Positions 11,306 to 62,920 of a DNA stretch of 64,000 nt are shown here, one piece after another. The stretch is taken from contig QQVO01000076.1 in NCBI GenBank assembly GCA_003388505.1, forward strand, positions 62,001 to 126,000. Direction: 5' to 3'. Position numbers and translations under genes: made by a program. Every line of letters starts with the position of its first letter. The first letter of the stretch is position 1. This stretch comes from Planctomycetota bacterium. GTDB taxonomy: Bacteria; Planctomycetota; Planctomycetia; Planctomycetales; Planctomycetaceae. The notes beneath the pieces are model-generated. The model made no database searches. It was not told the origin of the DNA and saw only the letters and a program-made list of their open reading frames with translations.

Positions 11306-11400
11306 GTGCCCTGACAGGGCTTTATTCTGGGATTGGCTGAACCGCGAATCCGCACGGAGCCCCCCGGGATTCGTGCTCTCGTACGAACCGCTCGACTCAC
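11306..11400 (-). repeat. R1 dispersed repeat, copy a
   Basis: On the minus strand this reads like the other R1 copies: a stem around GCACGAATCCC, then CGGATTCGCGGTTCAGCC, and AAAGCCCTGTCAGGGC at the end. Read on the plus strand, GCCCTGACAGGGC followed by TTTATT looks like a factor-independent terminator for the upstream CPBP gene. The repeat ends 6 bases before the TTG start of the next gene. Confidence 0.8.
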
Positions 11401-11406
11401 AAATCC

Positions 11407-12528
11407 TTGATCGCCAAACCACTCGTCCTTTTCGTACTCGCCTGCATCGTCCCGTCGCTGGTCATCTCGTGCGTTGCGACGGCCCTCATGCGGCGCTGGG
11501 CCCCCCGCTGGGGACTGATTGATCAGCCGGCCGCACGCAAGGTGCACTCCACGCCGACTCCCCTGGGCGGCGGCGTCGGCATCTACTGCGGCTTCGTGAT
11601 TCCGATCGTAGCGGCCTACTCCGCGATCCTGCTGCTGCCGCGCGATACTCTGACGTCCGCACTCCCCCTCGGATGGGAAGAGCACGTTGCCGGCGCTCTC
11701 TCGCGCGGTCCCCAGCTTGCGGCCATCCTTGGGGCGGGAACATTGCTGGCCGTGATGGGATTGATCGACGACGTCAAAGGGCTCCCCTGGCAGCCGAGGC
11801 TCGCGGTGCAACTGGGGATCGCGATCGCCCTGGCGCTGGCCGGCGTGCGGGCGACGGTGTTCGTCGAGGCGGAGTGGGTCGGCATGCTCGCTACGGTGAT
11901 CTGGATCGTGGTCCTCGTGAACGCCTTCAATTTCCTGGACAACATGGACGGACTGTCCGCCGGAATCGGTTTGATCGCGGCCGTCGTCTTCGCATCGATC
12001 ATGCTCAGTTTCAGCGGATCACCGCGGTGGCTGGTGGGCGGCAGCCTGCTTGTGCTCGCCGGGTCGCTGGCCGGATTTCTGGTCCATAATCGCCCCCCCG
12101 CAAAGATCTTCATGGGGGACGCCGGCAGCACGTTTCTCGGCCTGACGCTGGCCTGTTTGACGCTGGTCGGCACGTTCTACGATCCGCAGCAGGCGGGCCG
12201 GCACGTGATGCTGGCGCCGATCTGTGTCCTCGCCGTGCCGCTGTTCGACCTGACGACCGTTGTGTTCATACGCCTCAAGGAAGGACGCAGCCCGTTTCAT
12301 CCGGACAAGAACCATTTCTCGCATCGGCTGGTGGAACTCGGTCTCAGCCGCTATCACGCCGTGCTGACGGTGCACCTCGTGACGCTGACCACCGGCCTGG
12401 CGGCGCTGCTGATCTACGAAATGTCGAGTCTCTCCCGAACAGCGCTCGTGGCAGCGCTGGTCCTCTGCGTATTGACGGTCATCACGGTGCTCGAGACGGT
12501 CGGTCGGCGGCGGAACGGAGACGCTTGA
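11407..12528 (+). CDS. MraY/WecA-family undecaprenyl-phosphate glycosyl-1-phosphate transferase
   Basis: Product of 373 residues with about eleven hydrophobic segments. The start is TTG 11407, directly after a repeat; no ATG gives a full-length first helix. Family signatures are LIDQPAARKVHSTPTPLGGG, LIDDVKGLPWQ (Asp-Asp pair), NAFNFLDNMDGLSAG, FMGDAGSTFLGL and KNHFSHRL. The HSTPTPLGGG start and HFSHRL loop point to the WecA/TagO branch rather than MraY itself. It would load the first sugar phosphate onto undecaprenyl phosphate for a surface polysaccharide. The O-antigen-ligase-like gene follows, which supports that role. Confidence 0.88.
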   Translation: MIAKPLVLFVLACIVPSLVISCVATALMRRWAPRWGLIDQPAARKVHSTPTPLGGGVGIYCGFVIPIVAAYSAILLLPRDTLTSALPLGWEEHVAGALSRGPQLAAILGAGTLLAVMGLIDDVKGLPWQPRLAVQLGIAIALALAGVRATVFVEAEWVGMLATVIWIVVLVNAFNFLDNMDGLSAGIGLIAAVVFASIMLSFSGSPRWLVGGSLLVLAGSLAGFLVHNRPPAKIFMGDAGSTFLGLTLACLTLVGTFYDPQQAGRHVMLAPICVLAVPLFDLTTVVFIRLKEGRSPFHPDKNHFSHRLVELGLSRYHAVLTVHLVTLTTGLAALLIYEMSSLSRTALVAALVLCVLTVITVLETVGRRRNGDA

Positions 12529-22965: not shown

Positions 22966-23041
22966 TCCTGTCAGGGCTTTGTTTGTGGGCAGACCGAGGG
23001 GCGAATCCGCACTCAACCCTGCGGGATTCGTGCTCCGATGG
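22966..23041 (-). repeat. R1 dispersed repeat, copy b
   Basis: A partial R1 element read on the minus strand: GAGCACGAATCCCGCAGGG, then GTGCGGATTCGCC, ending AACAAAGCCCTGACAGG. The middle third has diverged from the consensus. It forms an inverted pair with copy c about 310 bases to the right. Confidence 0.75.
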
Positions 23042-23350: not shown

Positions 23351-23446
23351 GATGAACCATCGCGATTCAGGCGGCGCATTGATTCCGCAGGGTTTGGTGC
23401 GGATTCGCGGTTCAGCCAACTCGGCAACAAAGCCCTGACTCGGCAC
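23351..23446 (+). repeat. R1 dispersed repeat, copy c
   Basis: Plus-strand R1 element containing CCGCAGGGTTTGGTGCGG, TTCGCGGTTCAGCCAAC and CAACAAAGCCCTGACTCGG. It ends 14 bases before the ATG of the secreted-protein gene, so it lies in that gene's leader. Confidence 0.78.
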
Positions 23447-23460
23447 TCAAGGATGGACAT

Positions 23461-24793: not shown

Positions 24794-24840
24794 CTCAGGA
24801 TTAAACGCCCACTGGGGGTTCGTCATTCAGTTTCTTGGCG

Positions 24841-24932
24841 TTGAGCGGTTCTCACTTGAGCACGAATCCCGCAGGGTTTCGTGCGAATCTGCAGTCCAGC
24901 CAACCTGATATATGTAGCCCCGACAGGACACC
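24841..24932 (+). repeat. R1 dispersed repeat, copy d
   Basis: Plus-strand R1 copy beginning TTGAGCGGTTCTCA, then GAGCACGAATCCCGCAGGG and TTTCGTGC, which pair as an 11-base stem with one mismatch. The right end, TAGCCCCGACAGGAC, is degenerate compared with copies a and f. Confidence 0.8.
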
Positions 24933-37138: not shown

Positions 37139-37403
37139 CGCGAGTCCCTGTCGACGAACGGCGTTGACCGCCTCCGGCGACGTCGATGGCTGACGCGGCG
37201 ATCAAACCGATCGCTTCAAGTCGAGTCGCCTTCCGTAATCCAAGACGCGCGGGCGGAGTTTTCGGCGATTGGTCGCTCCCGATTCCGCGACGGGAACTCG
37301 GGACGCCGCCCTTCGCCCGTCCCATCGGAGTCCAGTGCGACGGGGCGGTCGCCAGTCGGCGCGCGACCGATTCCCATCGTGGTCCGTCAATCTTGAGTGG
37401 ACA

Positions 37404-37649
37404 GGTTGAGCGGTTCTCACGGGAGCACGAATCCCACAGCGCGGGCGTCGCCCGCAACCCAACAACGTAGCGCACGCAGCCTTGCGTGCGTCCCGCTGAT
37501 TGCGGAGGCCGCTGACGCACGCTGGCAGCGTGCGCTACGGACAAACGCCACAATTTGCGCAGGACGACAAACTCTCGCCAGTGAGTAGCACAGGGTTTCG
37601 TGCGGATCGGCGGTCCAGCCAACTCGTCAACTCAGCCCTGCCAGGGCCC
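37404..37649 (+). repeat. R1 dispersed repeat, copy e, split by an insertion
   Basis: The left part (37404-37439) carries GGTTGAGCGGTTCTCA and GAGCACGAATCCCACAG. The right part (37589-37649) resumes with CACAGGGTTTCGTGC, CAGCCAACTCG and AGCCCTGCCAGGGC. Removing the 149 bases between them restores an ordinary R1 unit like copies d and f. CACAG occurs once at the end of each half. Confidence 0.85.
37440..37588. mobile_element. 149-bp palindromic element inserted in an R1 repeat
   Basis: Bounded by CACAG on both sides (37435-37439 and 37589-37593), which corresponds to a single CGCAG in intact R1 copies, so it is a 5-base target duplication. Inside are GTAGCGCACGC (37467-37477) and GCGTGCGCTAC (37528-37538), an 11-base inverted repeat, each arm close to a further hairpin (CGCACGCAGCCTTGCGTGCG on the left). 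It carries no gene and would have moved with outside help. Confidence 0.75.
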
Positions 37650-37669
37650 TCGCCACGGGAGGTTTTTGA

Positions 37670-46608: not shown

Positions 46609-46712
46609 TAGAGCGAATTGGTCTCCCATGTGTGCACGTCGAGTGGTGTTTGGACTGTCGAGGACGAGAATCCGCGAGACAGATCACCAATACTGATTTG
46701 CAAAGTGCTATA
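46609..46712 (-). mobile_element. R2 element (MITE-like), copy 1
   Basis: A 104-base element, read on the minus strand from TATAGCACTTTGCAAAT to GAGACCAATTCGCTCTA. The ends share TA-x-AGC and TTG at matching places, like short terminal inverted repeats, and the flanking TA fits a Tc1/mariner-type target. It is the same length as the copy at 51062 and differs at about one base in seven by eye. Confidence 0.75.
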
Positions 46713-46783: not shown

Positions 46784-47158
46784 ATGGTCCTGATCTATGA
46801 GAAAGAAAGCTACGAAATTCTCGGTGCCTGCTTCGAAGTCTACAAACAAATGGGACCCGGTTTCCTCGAAGCGGTGTATCAGGAGTCACTGGAGATTGAG
46901 TTCCGACTACGAAACATTCCTTTCCTCGCGCAGTAGCCGTTGAAGCTGAAGTACAAGGATCATGTGCTCAAGCAGATCTATCAGCCCGATTTCGTCTGCT
47001 ACGACAGAATCATTGTGGAAATTAAAGCGACAAGCGACTTGAGTGACATCTTCAGGGCGCAGGTGCTGAACTACTTGCGTTCTACCGGACTGAGGCTCGG
47101 GTTGCTCATCAACTTCACCAGCCACCCAAAACTCCAACACGAACGAATTGTGCTCTGA
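46784..47158 (+). pseudogene. GxxExxY (PD-(D/E)XK) family protein with an in-frame stop
   Basis: Reading from ATG 46784, VLIYEKESYEILGACFEVYK and GPGFLEAVYQESLEIE (the GxxExxY motif) give the family N-terminus. A TAG at 46934-46936 interrupts after IPFLAQ, and the same frame then gives PLKLKYKDHVLKQIYQPDF, DRIIVEIKATSDL (the D-x-E-x-K site) to the end. Intact relatives usually have Lys at the stop position, so one A-to-T change (AAG to TAG) explains it. It is bordered by R5 repeats in direct orientation. Confidence 0.82.
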
Positions 47159-49742: not shown

Positions 49743-51215
49743 ATGTTCGGTTGGTTTCGTCCTCGGCCTCCCCTGGAGACCTTCGAGCAAGCCTGGGTCG
49801 AACGGCATATGCGCTGGCTCGCGGGTCAGTTCACCGTCGACCGCATCCGCCGGGCCGACATCCTCCTGCCCACCGATGAGTCCCTCCCGCCCGGTCCGCC
49901 GGAAAATCACGACGAAGTCCGCAAGTGGCTGAACCTCATCGCCGCGCGACTCGACCTCGACGCATCATCGATCAAACTTGAAGTCGTCGACGAGGCCGCG
50001 ATGCCCGGCGCATCCGGTCAGTACGTCCAAAACGAGCGGCTCATCCGCATCAACGAGACCGTCCTCGCCGAACCCCCGCAACTCATCGCCGTCCTCGCCC
50101 ACGAACTCGCCCACGAACTGCTGCTCGGGCAGGGACGATTGGAGAACTCTGATCCGGACCACGAGTGGATCACCGACCTGCTCCCCGTCTGCTTCGGCCT
50201 CGGCATCTTCTCCGCCAATTGCACAATCGTCGACCGCACGCACCGGTTCGGAACCTCCGAAACCTGGAGCATTGAGCGCAGCGGCTACCTCCCCTCCCGA
50301 ATGTTCGGTTACGCCCTCGCCCTCTTCGCCCACCTCCGGGGCGAACACCAACCCCCCTGGATGGACCTCCTCCGCCCGGACGCCCGCGAACCGCTCCGCG
50401 AAGGGCTCAAGTATCTTGCCAAAGAACCCGACTCGGAATTGATCATCACCCGTGACTGGAGTTCCCTCAGCGATGCCGAACTGCTCGACATGTTGCATTC
50501 CGCACCGCCGTCCCGACAGTTGGACGCCGTCTGGGAACTCGAAGCACGCGGCGTTCACTCCCCGGAAGTCCTCACGGCCTTGAGGCGGCTGTTCGATGCC
50601 GACGACGACGCCGTTGCCGAGCAGGCGGTCCACGTCCTCAGCGACTGGCCAGAATTCCCCGAGGCCGCGCGACAGGATATCGCCCTCCTCACCGAGCACC
50701 GCGACACCCGCCGCCGAATCGCCGCCCTGCGCGCAGCCGCACGCCATCGCTTCCCGGCCGACCCCATCGTCTCCAACCTGCAGGACCTCTTCCTGGGCGA
50801 ACTCAGCCGCCGGGAATTGCTCTCCGCCCTGCACTGTCTCCTCGACCTGGGTCGGTCCGCCGAACCGCTGCTGCCGTATGTCGTCAAAGTCTGGAAAACC
50901 TCACTGGTCCGCATGGACGACGACGAACTCGGCGAAGCCGCCGCCACCGTCTTCGCCGCGTGCACAACCAACCCCGAGCAGCAGGCCGAATCCTTCCTCC
51001 CCGACCCCGAACTCTCCACCCGAGCCATCGAAATGCTCCGGCGACTGAAGAACGCCCCGAATATAGCGCTTTGTAAATCAGTGTTGGCGATCTGTCTCGC
51101 GGATTGTCGTCCTCGACAGTCCAAATGCCGCTCGACGCGGACACATGGTAGAGCAATTTGCTCTAGCCCGGTGCAGGCCTCACTCACGACCCAACCGCAG
51201 GCGAATCAGAGTTGA
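49743..51215 (+). CDS. HExxH metalloprotease-like protein with HEAT-like repeats
   Basis: Product of 490 residues from ATG 49743; the longer frame from 49581 has no homology. HELAH (His120, Glu121, His124) is the zinc motif, in AVLAHELAHELLLGQ, like M48-type peptidases, and DHEWITDLL supplies a possible third ligand. Residues 260-430 form short helical pairs resembling HEAT repeats. From about residue 440 the coding sequence enters an R2 element (51062-51165), so the last 50 residues (CKSVLAICLADCRPRQSK) come from repeat DNA. Probably soluble; substrate unknown. Confidence 0.75.
   Translation: MFGWFRPRPPLETFEQAWVERHMRWLAGQFTVDRIRRADILLPTDESLPPGPPENHDEVRKWLNLIAARLDLDASSIKLEVVDEAAMPGASGQYVQNERLIRINETVLAEPPQLIAVLAHELAHELLLGQGRLENSDPDHEWITDLLPVCFGLGIFSANCTIVDRTHRFGTSETWSIERSGYLPSRMFGYALALFAHLRGEHQPPWMDLLRPDAREPLREGLKYLAKEPDSELIITRDWSSLSDAELLDMLHSAPPSRQLDAVWELEARGVHSPEVLTALRRLFDADDDAVAEQAVHVLSDWPEFPEAARQDIALLTEHRDTRRRIAALRAAARHRFPADPIVSNLQDLFLGELSRRELLSALHCLLDLGRSAEPLLPYVVKVWKTSLVRMDDDELGEAAATVFAACTTNPEQQAESFLPDPELSTRAIEMLRRLKNAPNIALCKSVLAICLADCRPRQSKCRSTRTHGRAICSSPVQASLTTQPQANQS
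51062..51165 (+). mobile_element. R2 element (MITE-like), copy 2, inside a coding 3' end
   Basis: A 104-base element from TATAGCGCTTTGTAAATCAG to GAGCAATTTGCTCTA. The ends share TA-x-AGC and TTG in inverted positions. It matches the copy at 46609 along its whole length. The reading frame of the metalloprotease stays open through it to a stop at 51213. Confidence 0.78.
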
Positions 51216-51295
51216 GCAGCGAAGCCGAGCGAGCAAAGGGCTGCGGGCGTCAGTCCGCAGAATACTCATGGTGCCTTGTCAATTGAGAATCTTCG

Positions 51296-51386
51296 GGTTG
51301 AGCGGTTCGCTCGGAAGCTCGAATCCCGCAGGGTTTCGTGCGGTTTTACGGTTCAGCCAACCCGAAAATAAGGCCCTGACAGCGCA
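51296..51386 (+). repeat. R1 dispersed repeat, copy f
   Basis: Plus-strand R1 copy with GGTTGAGCGGTTC, CGAATCCCGCAGGGTTTCG, CGGTTCAGCCAACC and AAGGCCCTGACAGC. Its right end touches the stop codon of the Gfo/Idh/MocA gene, so it forms the immediate 3' region of that transcript, where the minus strand reads GCTGTCAGGGCCTTATTTT. Confidence 0.82.
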
Positions 51387-52520
51387 CTATGAGGATTCCG
51401 CGAGCGGATGGCGGCGTTCCGCCAACGGAATTCCGAGTCGAACGCCGCCGCTTAGATGTGACGCGTACACCCCCTGCACCATCTCCGTAATCCACACTCC
51501 GTGCGTGATCGGCGAGAGCGGGTCGCGGTCTTCTTCGATCGCCGTAATGAGGTCGTTCGCAAGCACTCCGTTGCCCAGCCGCAGCCACTCCTTGCGCAGC
51601 GGCCGGGCGTTGCCGTCGGCGTCAAAATGCCAGTCAGGAATGACCTGTTTGTCCCATGCCAGGTCTTCGATGTCCGGCAGGACGCGCGGGGCGGGATAGA
51701 CGAACACGTCACCCGGTTGTCGCAGCATGAGGGACGCCTGTTCGCACTCCAGAGACAGCCCGTACAGTTCGGAGAACCTCCGCTCGGGTCCGGGTGAGAG
51801 GCCGGCCGTGGAGTCGAAGAATCCCCGCACGCCGTCGCCGAATCCGAACATGGCCGAAATTGAGTCCCCCAGGATGGGGCCGACCGGTTCGGTGGCCTGC
51901 GTTGCATCCTCCGCGCGTGCGTCGCGGCCGTCGACGGAGACATGGGCGCTGACCCACTGCGGAGGGCCAGCGAAGGCAATCATCATGTCGAACAGGTGTG
52001 TGCCGTGCACCAGCAGTTCCTCGCCTCCGCCACGGCGGTCGTCCTTCGGGCGGGCCCGCATCCGGAGCAGTCGCCCGTACTTGCCGTCGCGGACATCCTG
52101 AATCGCCTGCTGCACGGGCCGCATGGCGCGCCATTGATGAGCCATCTGCAGACGAACGCCCTGCATTTCAACGGCGTCCCGAATGGCGTCCGCCGTTTCC
52201 AGGTCACCGGTCAGCGGCTTTTCGCAGTAGATGTGTGCGCCGTGTCCTGCGACCGCCTCCACCATGTCTTGCCGGTCGGTGGTCCATCTCGGCCCGATGC
52301 AGACGATGTCCGGATGCACCCGGTCCAGCATCTCGCGATAGTCGGCGAATCCCTCCATGGCGCCGGTGCGTTCCATCGCGGCCCGTCGTCCGGCCTCGTC
52401 CGCATCAGCGACAGCCACAACCCCTGCGTTCGCAACGTCTGTGAACGCGGTATCGATGGCGTGGCCAAAGTCTCCCCGCCCTGTGGCTCCGATCACCCCC
52501 ACCCGGTATCGCTTCGCCAT
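51387..52520 (-). CDS. Gfo/Idh/MocA-family oxidoreductase
   Basis: Product of 377 residues from ATG 52520 with AAAGGAA upstream. The N-terminal Rossmann fold is YRVGVIGATGRGDFGHAIDTAF and IYCEKPLTGDLETAD contains the family E-K-P motif. VHGTHLFDMMIAFAG is the later conserved His/Asp region. These NAD(P)-dependent enzymes oxidise or reduce sugars, inositols and related compounds; the substrate is not evident. The usual GxGxxG is relaxed to GATGRGDFG. Transcription is opposite to both neighbours. Confidence 0.88.
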   Translation of the reverse strand: MAKRYRVGVIGATGRGDFGHAIDTAFTDVANAGVVAVADADEAGRRAAMERTGAMEGFADYREMLDRVHPDIVCIGPRWTTDRQDMVEAVAGHGAHIYCEKPLTGDLETADAIRDAVEMQGVRLQMAHQWRAMRPVQQAIQDVRDGKYGRLLRMRARPKDDRRGGGEELLVHGTHLFDMMIAFAGPPQWVSAHVSVDGRDARAEDATQATEPVGPILGDSISAMFGFGDGVRGFFDSTAGLSPGPERRFSELYGLSLECEQASLMLRQPGDVFVYPAPRVLPDIEDLAWDKQVIPDWHFDADGNARPLRKEWLRLGNGVLANDLITAIEEDRDPLSPITHGVWITEMVQGVYASHLSGGVRLGIPLAERRHPLAESS

Positions 52521-62783: not shown

Positions 62784-62860
62784 ACACAACTCGGCCGGGA
62801 CCCGGCGTCGAGGAAACGGGCCCAGGGGATTCTCGAACAGAACACGGATTTTCGCGGATT
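62784..62860 (-). repeat. R3 dispersed repeat, copy 2
   Basis: Contains GGATTCTCGAACAGAACACG and ACACAACTCGGCC, matching the copy at 54131. Its end runs directly into a truncated R2 copy at 62854, so the two form a mosaic. Confidence 0.7.
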
Positions 62861-62920
62861 CTCGTCCTAGACAGCCCAAACACCGCTCGACGCGGACACA
62901 TGGTAAAGCAATTTGCACTA
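62854..62920 (+). repeat. R2 element, copy 3 (truncated)
   Basis: 67 bases from GCGGATTCTCGTCC to TGCACTA, equal to the right two thirds of R2. The first 37 bases are missing and the R3 copy takes their place. The last three bases, CTA, are the stop codon of the FxsA gene. Confidence 0.75.

Follow-up and report, generated by a model that had tools for sequence, protein, structure and literature searches.

The final codons of a predicted metalloprotease gene coincide with a copy of a dispersed 104-nt repeat, here termed R2, which raises the question of how a repeat found mostly between genes came to encode the end of a protein and whether the resulting tail serves the host. The following features of the window, that is, the whole 64,000-nt stretch analysed, bear on this question:

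49743-51215, plus strand: HExxH metalloprotease / HEAT-repeat gene of 490 aa, with its ATG at 49743 (homologues share the start Met) and its TGA at 51213-51215
51062-51165, plus strand: R2 copy (putative MITE) in the protease gene; with the TA duplication discounted, it contributes exactly 34 codons, those of residues 441-474
51166-51215, plus strand: last 16 codons of the gene (residues 475-490), within a copy of the repeat R3 that reaches about 51260
51262-51388, strand not assigned: member of a third intergenic repeat family of high copy number, beyond the 3' end of the protease gene
46609-46712, minus strand: second R2 copy, intergenic, between the end of a glutamate-synthase-like gene (46416) and an ORF at 46784
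62852-62920, plus strand: third R2 copy, 5'-truncated by 35 nt relative to the consensus

The original prediction had described a 104-base R2 element at 51062-51165 with TA-x-AGC ends, a match to the copy at 46609, and a metalloprotease frame running through it to a stop at 51213. These particulars were borne out: the two copies match without gaps over 104 nt (88%), the ends read TA(T/G)AGC on the left and TAGAGC, in reverse complement, on the right, and the frame remains open up to the TGA. The accompanying estimate that about 50 C-terminal residues derive from R2 was too high, as 34 do (441-474), while the other 16 come from R3-like DNA. Pfam matches of the gene product to SprT-like and HEAT_2 were weak and both under the cut-off, and a PDB fold search returned weak HEAT-repeat and BepA-like matches only, none reaching E 0.001. 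Rfam gave no match across 50900-51400, and the R2 RNA fold is only mildly stable (z -1.4). The R3 copy (51166-51260) matches eight other sampled places at 70-79% (best E 6e-10), and the six of these that were compared with gene calls all fall essentially between genes. The third repeat family (GAGCACGAATCCCGCAGGGTTTCGTGCGGA...) also occurs at 11306-11422, 22967-23037, 23382-23447, 24805-24926 and 37370-37650, and the sampled genome contains dozens of its copies, up to 96% alike. Adjoining the second R2 copy, positions 46784-47158 hold two short successive coding frames split by a TAG and resemble a broken small gene.

The copy number of R2 is at least 127 by core match, far above chance, with 127 matches to a core 27-mer (up to three mismatches) in the 6.78-Mb genome versus none for the reversed control. 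The 114 near-full copies share a mean identity of about 95%, and their majority sequence, read from the copies, is TATAGCGCTTTGCAAATCAGTGTTGGCGATCTGTCTCGCGGATTCTCGTCCTCGACAGTCCAAACACCGCTCGACGCGGACACATGGTAGAGCAATTTGCTCTA. Among them, the left TA is preceded by T or C in 89% and the right TA is followed by A or G in 92%, so that the target, as judged from these flanks, is a symmetric YTAR. One copy (L057) lies within another repeat, the R2-free counterparts of which, at several other places in the same genome, read GACAACTTAGCCCAGGG; these related empty sites demonstrate a TA duplication and a net gain of 102 nt per R2 insertion. The terminal inverted repeats are short and imperfect, comprising TA(T/G)AGC plus TTGC, with 9 of 13 positions agreeing between R2's own ends (by eye, on the consensus). 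In general description, R2 may resemble the Correia elements (CREE/NEMIS), which are similar in length and also start with TATAG, and which carry a terminal repeat of about 24-26 bp.

A resident IS630-family element (L144, 968-2051, G000:C73) has the terminal inverted repeat TAGAGCGCTCTGCACAACAG, to which the R2 left end corresponds at 16 of 20 positions and the right end at 9 of 13. Its transposase scores 190.9 bits on the NCBIfam IS630 model NF033545 (cut-off 100). This is the sole near-complete IS630 copy that is resident, and the C-terminal part of its transposase apparently lies in another frame, after the catalytic part, which makes activity of the L144 copy improbable. R2 is thus short, non-coding and dispersed in near-identical copies, duplicates TA, carries terminal inverted repeats, and has ends in common with an autonomous element. 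The suggestion that R2 is a MITE is supported by its copy number, TA duplication, inverted repeats and IS630-like ends, and on this sequence evidence the best reading of R2 is that of an IS630-type MITE with an IS630 transposase as its candidate mobilising enzyme. Separately, we noted that an R2 copy missing the final 6 nt lies about 50 nt upstream of the L144 element, and that at L147 (G000:C17:79575-82721) an R2 copy and an IS630 remnant are about 130 nt apart.

Alignment of the protease with its homologues revealed that L007, L008, L013, L022 and the paralogue L026 can be aligned with it only as far as residues 432-435, just short of R2, which begins at residue 440. The homology boundary supports the view that the tail is repeat-derived, and no R2-free orthologue ending in the same tail was seen among the homologues aligned. 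The homologues L007, L008, L013 and L020 stop within a few residues of the R2 site, and L015, L022 and L026 possess their own short, unrelated extensions past the end of homology. AlphaFold2 pLDDT values are mostly 70-95 up to residue 438 and fall below 50 over residues 439-490, and the codon score per codon is +0.30 in the body of the gene, -0.54 in the R2 part and +0.10 in the last 16 codons. Frame 1 of R2 is fully open in the consensus, so no mutation was needed for read-through. The protease copy differs from the consensus at four positions, all of which are found in other copies, and this lack of any private substitution points to a recent insertion. Taken at the level of sequence, the protease copy probably represents a recent, tolerated in-frame insertion.

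That the R2-derived tail has a function is unsupported. Its adoption for localisation, degradation control or binding would fit the open frame and the proposal that MITE peptides of other bacteria supply material from which new proteins can arise (PMC2759123, PMC5896051), but we consider it very improbable, given the absence of private substitutions, the poor, non-host codon score, the predicted disorder, and the lack of the tail in any homologue. The same properties of the tail itself speak against the original wording that R2 'has become the coding 3' end', if adopted function is meant. It is equally hard to credit that an error of sequencing or assembly created the tail and masks a genuine stop codon around residue 440. 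The assembly is a draft of 78 contigs and one missing base would shift the frame, but the locus lies deep within a 224-kb contig and the R2 copy is exactly of consensus length.

A further alternative concerns where the gene ended before the insertion. Joining the flanks with R2 removed yields a protein of 456 aa, inside the 450-472 aa range of the homologues, and hence the gene may already have ended at the present TGA before R2 arrived. Alternatively, the gene may once have ended at the insertion point (GAA TAG), where the TAT end of R2 destroyed the stop and a small slip upstream set the present frame. The homologues that end a few residues from the insertion, the empty site reading GAATAG, and the resemblance of the 16 downstream codons to an intergenic repeat, perhaps non-coding before, are all compatible with such a loss of the stop. 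However, the TAG of the site is out of the present frame and would require an additional indel in the last few codons, whereas the frame is maintained and homology persists up to about residue 435, and the 456-aa product of the joined flanks falls within the size range of the homologues; we thus regard this course of events as unlikely. An in-frame insertion upstream of an already existing TGA is the reading that we prefer.

To place the protease copy among its relatives, about 18% of the genome was read directly, as stretches around copies (1.22 Mb including the window) that were chosen for holding R2, and genes were called with a codon-bias caller written for this analysis (81% coding). By context, 81 of the 114 copies fall between genes and 32 overlap the end of a gene, which leaves the protease copy as the only one inside a gene. 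Target preference predicts about 108 coding copies per 81 intergenic ones, and a single one was observed. The protease copy is therefore exceptional, and a coding tail is not typical of R2. A role as an in-frame protein element like that of the Rickettsia palindromic elements (RPE) was considered and rejected, with 1 of 114 copies inside a gene here and 1 of 50 in a second genome, G004. The 32 gene-end overlaps comprise 29 stops at the right end of R2, two at the left end (L066 and L108), and one gene 5' end (L126 9648, G000:C31), where the left end of R2 shares 3 nt with the called gene and may supply its start region.

Thus, about 31 of the 114 copies sit exactly on the stop codon of a gene. 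Of the 29 stops at the right end, 28 are TAG and one is TAA, and their rebuilt empty sites read TAA in 19 cases and TAG in 8; in both left-end cases, the left end is TAG. Across all 114 copies, 88 have TAG at the right end; at the left end, 70 have TAT and 11 have TAG. With its TA followed by G, the right end recreates a stop codon, which the usual left TAT cannot do, and the insertions at stop codons obey that rule. L116 has a second, converging gene, the stop of which is likewise the TAG within the left-end TATAG. Of 20 stop-sharing genes tested, 17 exceeded a Pfam cut-off, among them those for ribosome recycling factor and BipA, and in the ribosome recycling factor with an R2-supplied stop the domain reaches residue 184 of 186. 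The 29 right-end stops compare with about 5 expected from target preference, a figure that is an underestimate because used sites were left out of the pool, and purging alone does not fully account for this difference.

The pattern is replicated in G004, a complete genome from a different genus of the same family as the R2 host, which holds several hundred candidate related elements. Among 50 of these, 7 supply right-end stops and 4 left-end stops (11 of 50), 38 are intergenic, and one (L153 1491) is the only related element inside a called gene. A TAGA left end is present in 21 of the 50, and left-end stops are common there. No DDE_3 transposase was detected in G004 at E 0.001.

We consider it likely that these observations have a common explanation, in which R2 is a non-autonomous IS630/Tc1-type MITE that enters YTAR-like target sites, duplicates TA, and would be mobilised by an IS630 transposase. 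In the protease gene, R2 would have inserted at AA-TA-G, a few codons past the last conserved helix, in the orientation that gives the open frame 1; since R2 adds a net 102 nt, the frame beyond it would have been kept and the protein lengthened from a predicted 456 to 490 residues. Most probably this insertion happened recently and is neutral or close to neutral, and the copy would be a rare survivor of insertions into genes that are nearly always purged, with purifying selection presumably behind the distribution of copies. At gene-touching copies elsewhere, the target TA would have been part of a TAA or TAG, and because the right end of R2 rebuilds TAG, the host protein would be left unchanged. 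A more tentative proposal, which we rate as possible though doubtful, is that the R2 family is adapted to stop codons, its TAG end settling at the 3' ends of even essential genes, with the protein unchanged and above the expectation from target preference.

The protease tail itself is an ordinary case of a MITE extending a protein, and the stop-codon pattern is the more telling result. It offers a simple reason for the build-up of MITEs at gene 3' ends, namely that a terminal TA followed by G restores the stop, in one orientation only. The natural TAT and TAG end variants act as a built-in control for this rule, and the result was repeated in a second genus.

A literature search for insertion elements that restore stop codons returned nothing relevant, and several known systems share parts of the picture. 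RUP, the repeat unit of pneumococcus (107 bp, 108 copies, TA target), has ends that resemble those of the resident IS630-Spn1 (PMC2229807); RUP is an IS630-type MITE close to R2 in size and number, in an unrelated host, but that review presents it as intergenic and does not mention a stop-codon pattern, in which respect R2 differs. In pneumococcal BOX, a copy at the extreme 3' end encodes the stop codon of 36 annotated genes (PMC3049150); BOX varies in size, whereas R2 is fixed at 104 nt and its stop is the terminal TA plus G, from which the orientation rule follows. The Coxiella burnetii elements QMITE1 and QMITE2, which are different from R2, lie at the 3' ends of all affected functional genes, in some by only 1-3 bp, and EnhC of one strain carries a 33-residue QMITE2 tail; the reason for their 3' preference is stated as unknown in that study (PMC5896051). 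The amidase ECA3499, with ERIC / RU-1, has a MITE-made C-terminal extension past its conserved domain (PMC2759123), where RU-1, which is unrelated to R2, apparently removed the normal stop codon. RPE contribute in-frame MITE peptides to proteins (PMC2229807, PMC10969869) and are often found inside genes, whereas R2 almost never is. MITE tails and MITE-encoded stops are thus already known, and what is new here is another MITE at gene 3' ends, with an unusually clear stop-codon rule.
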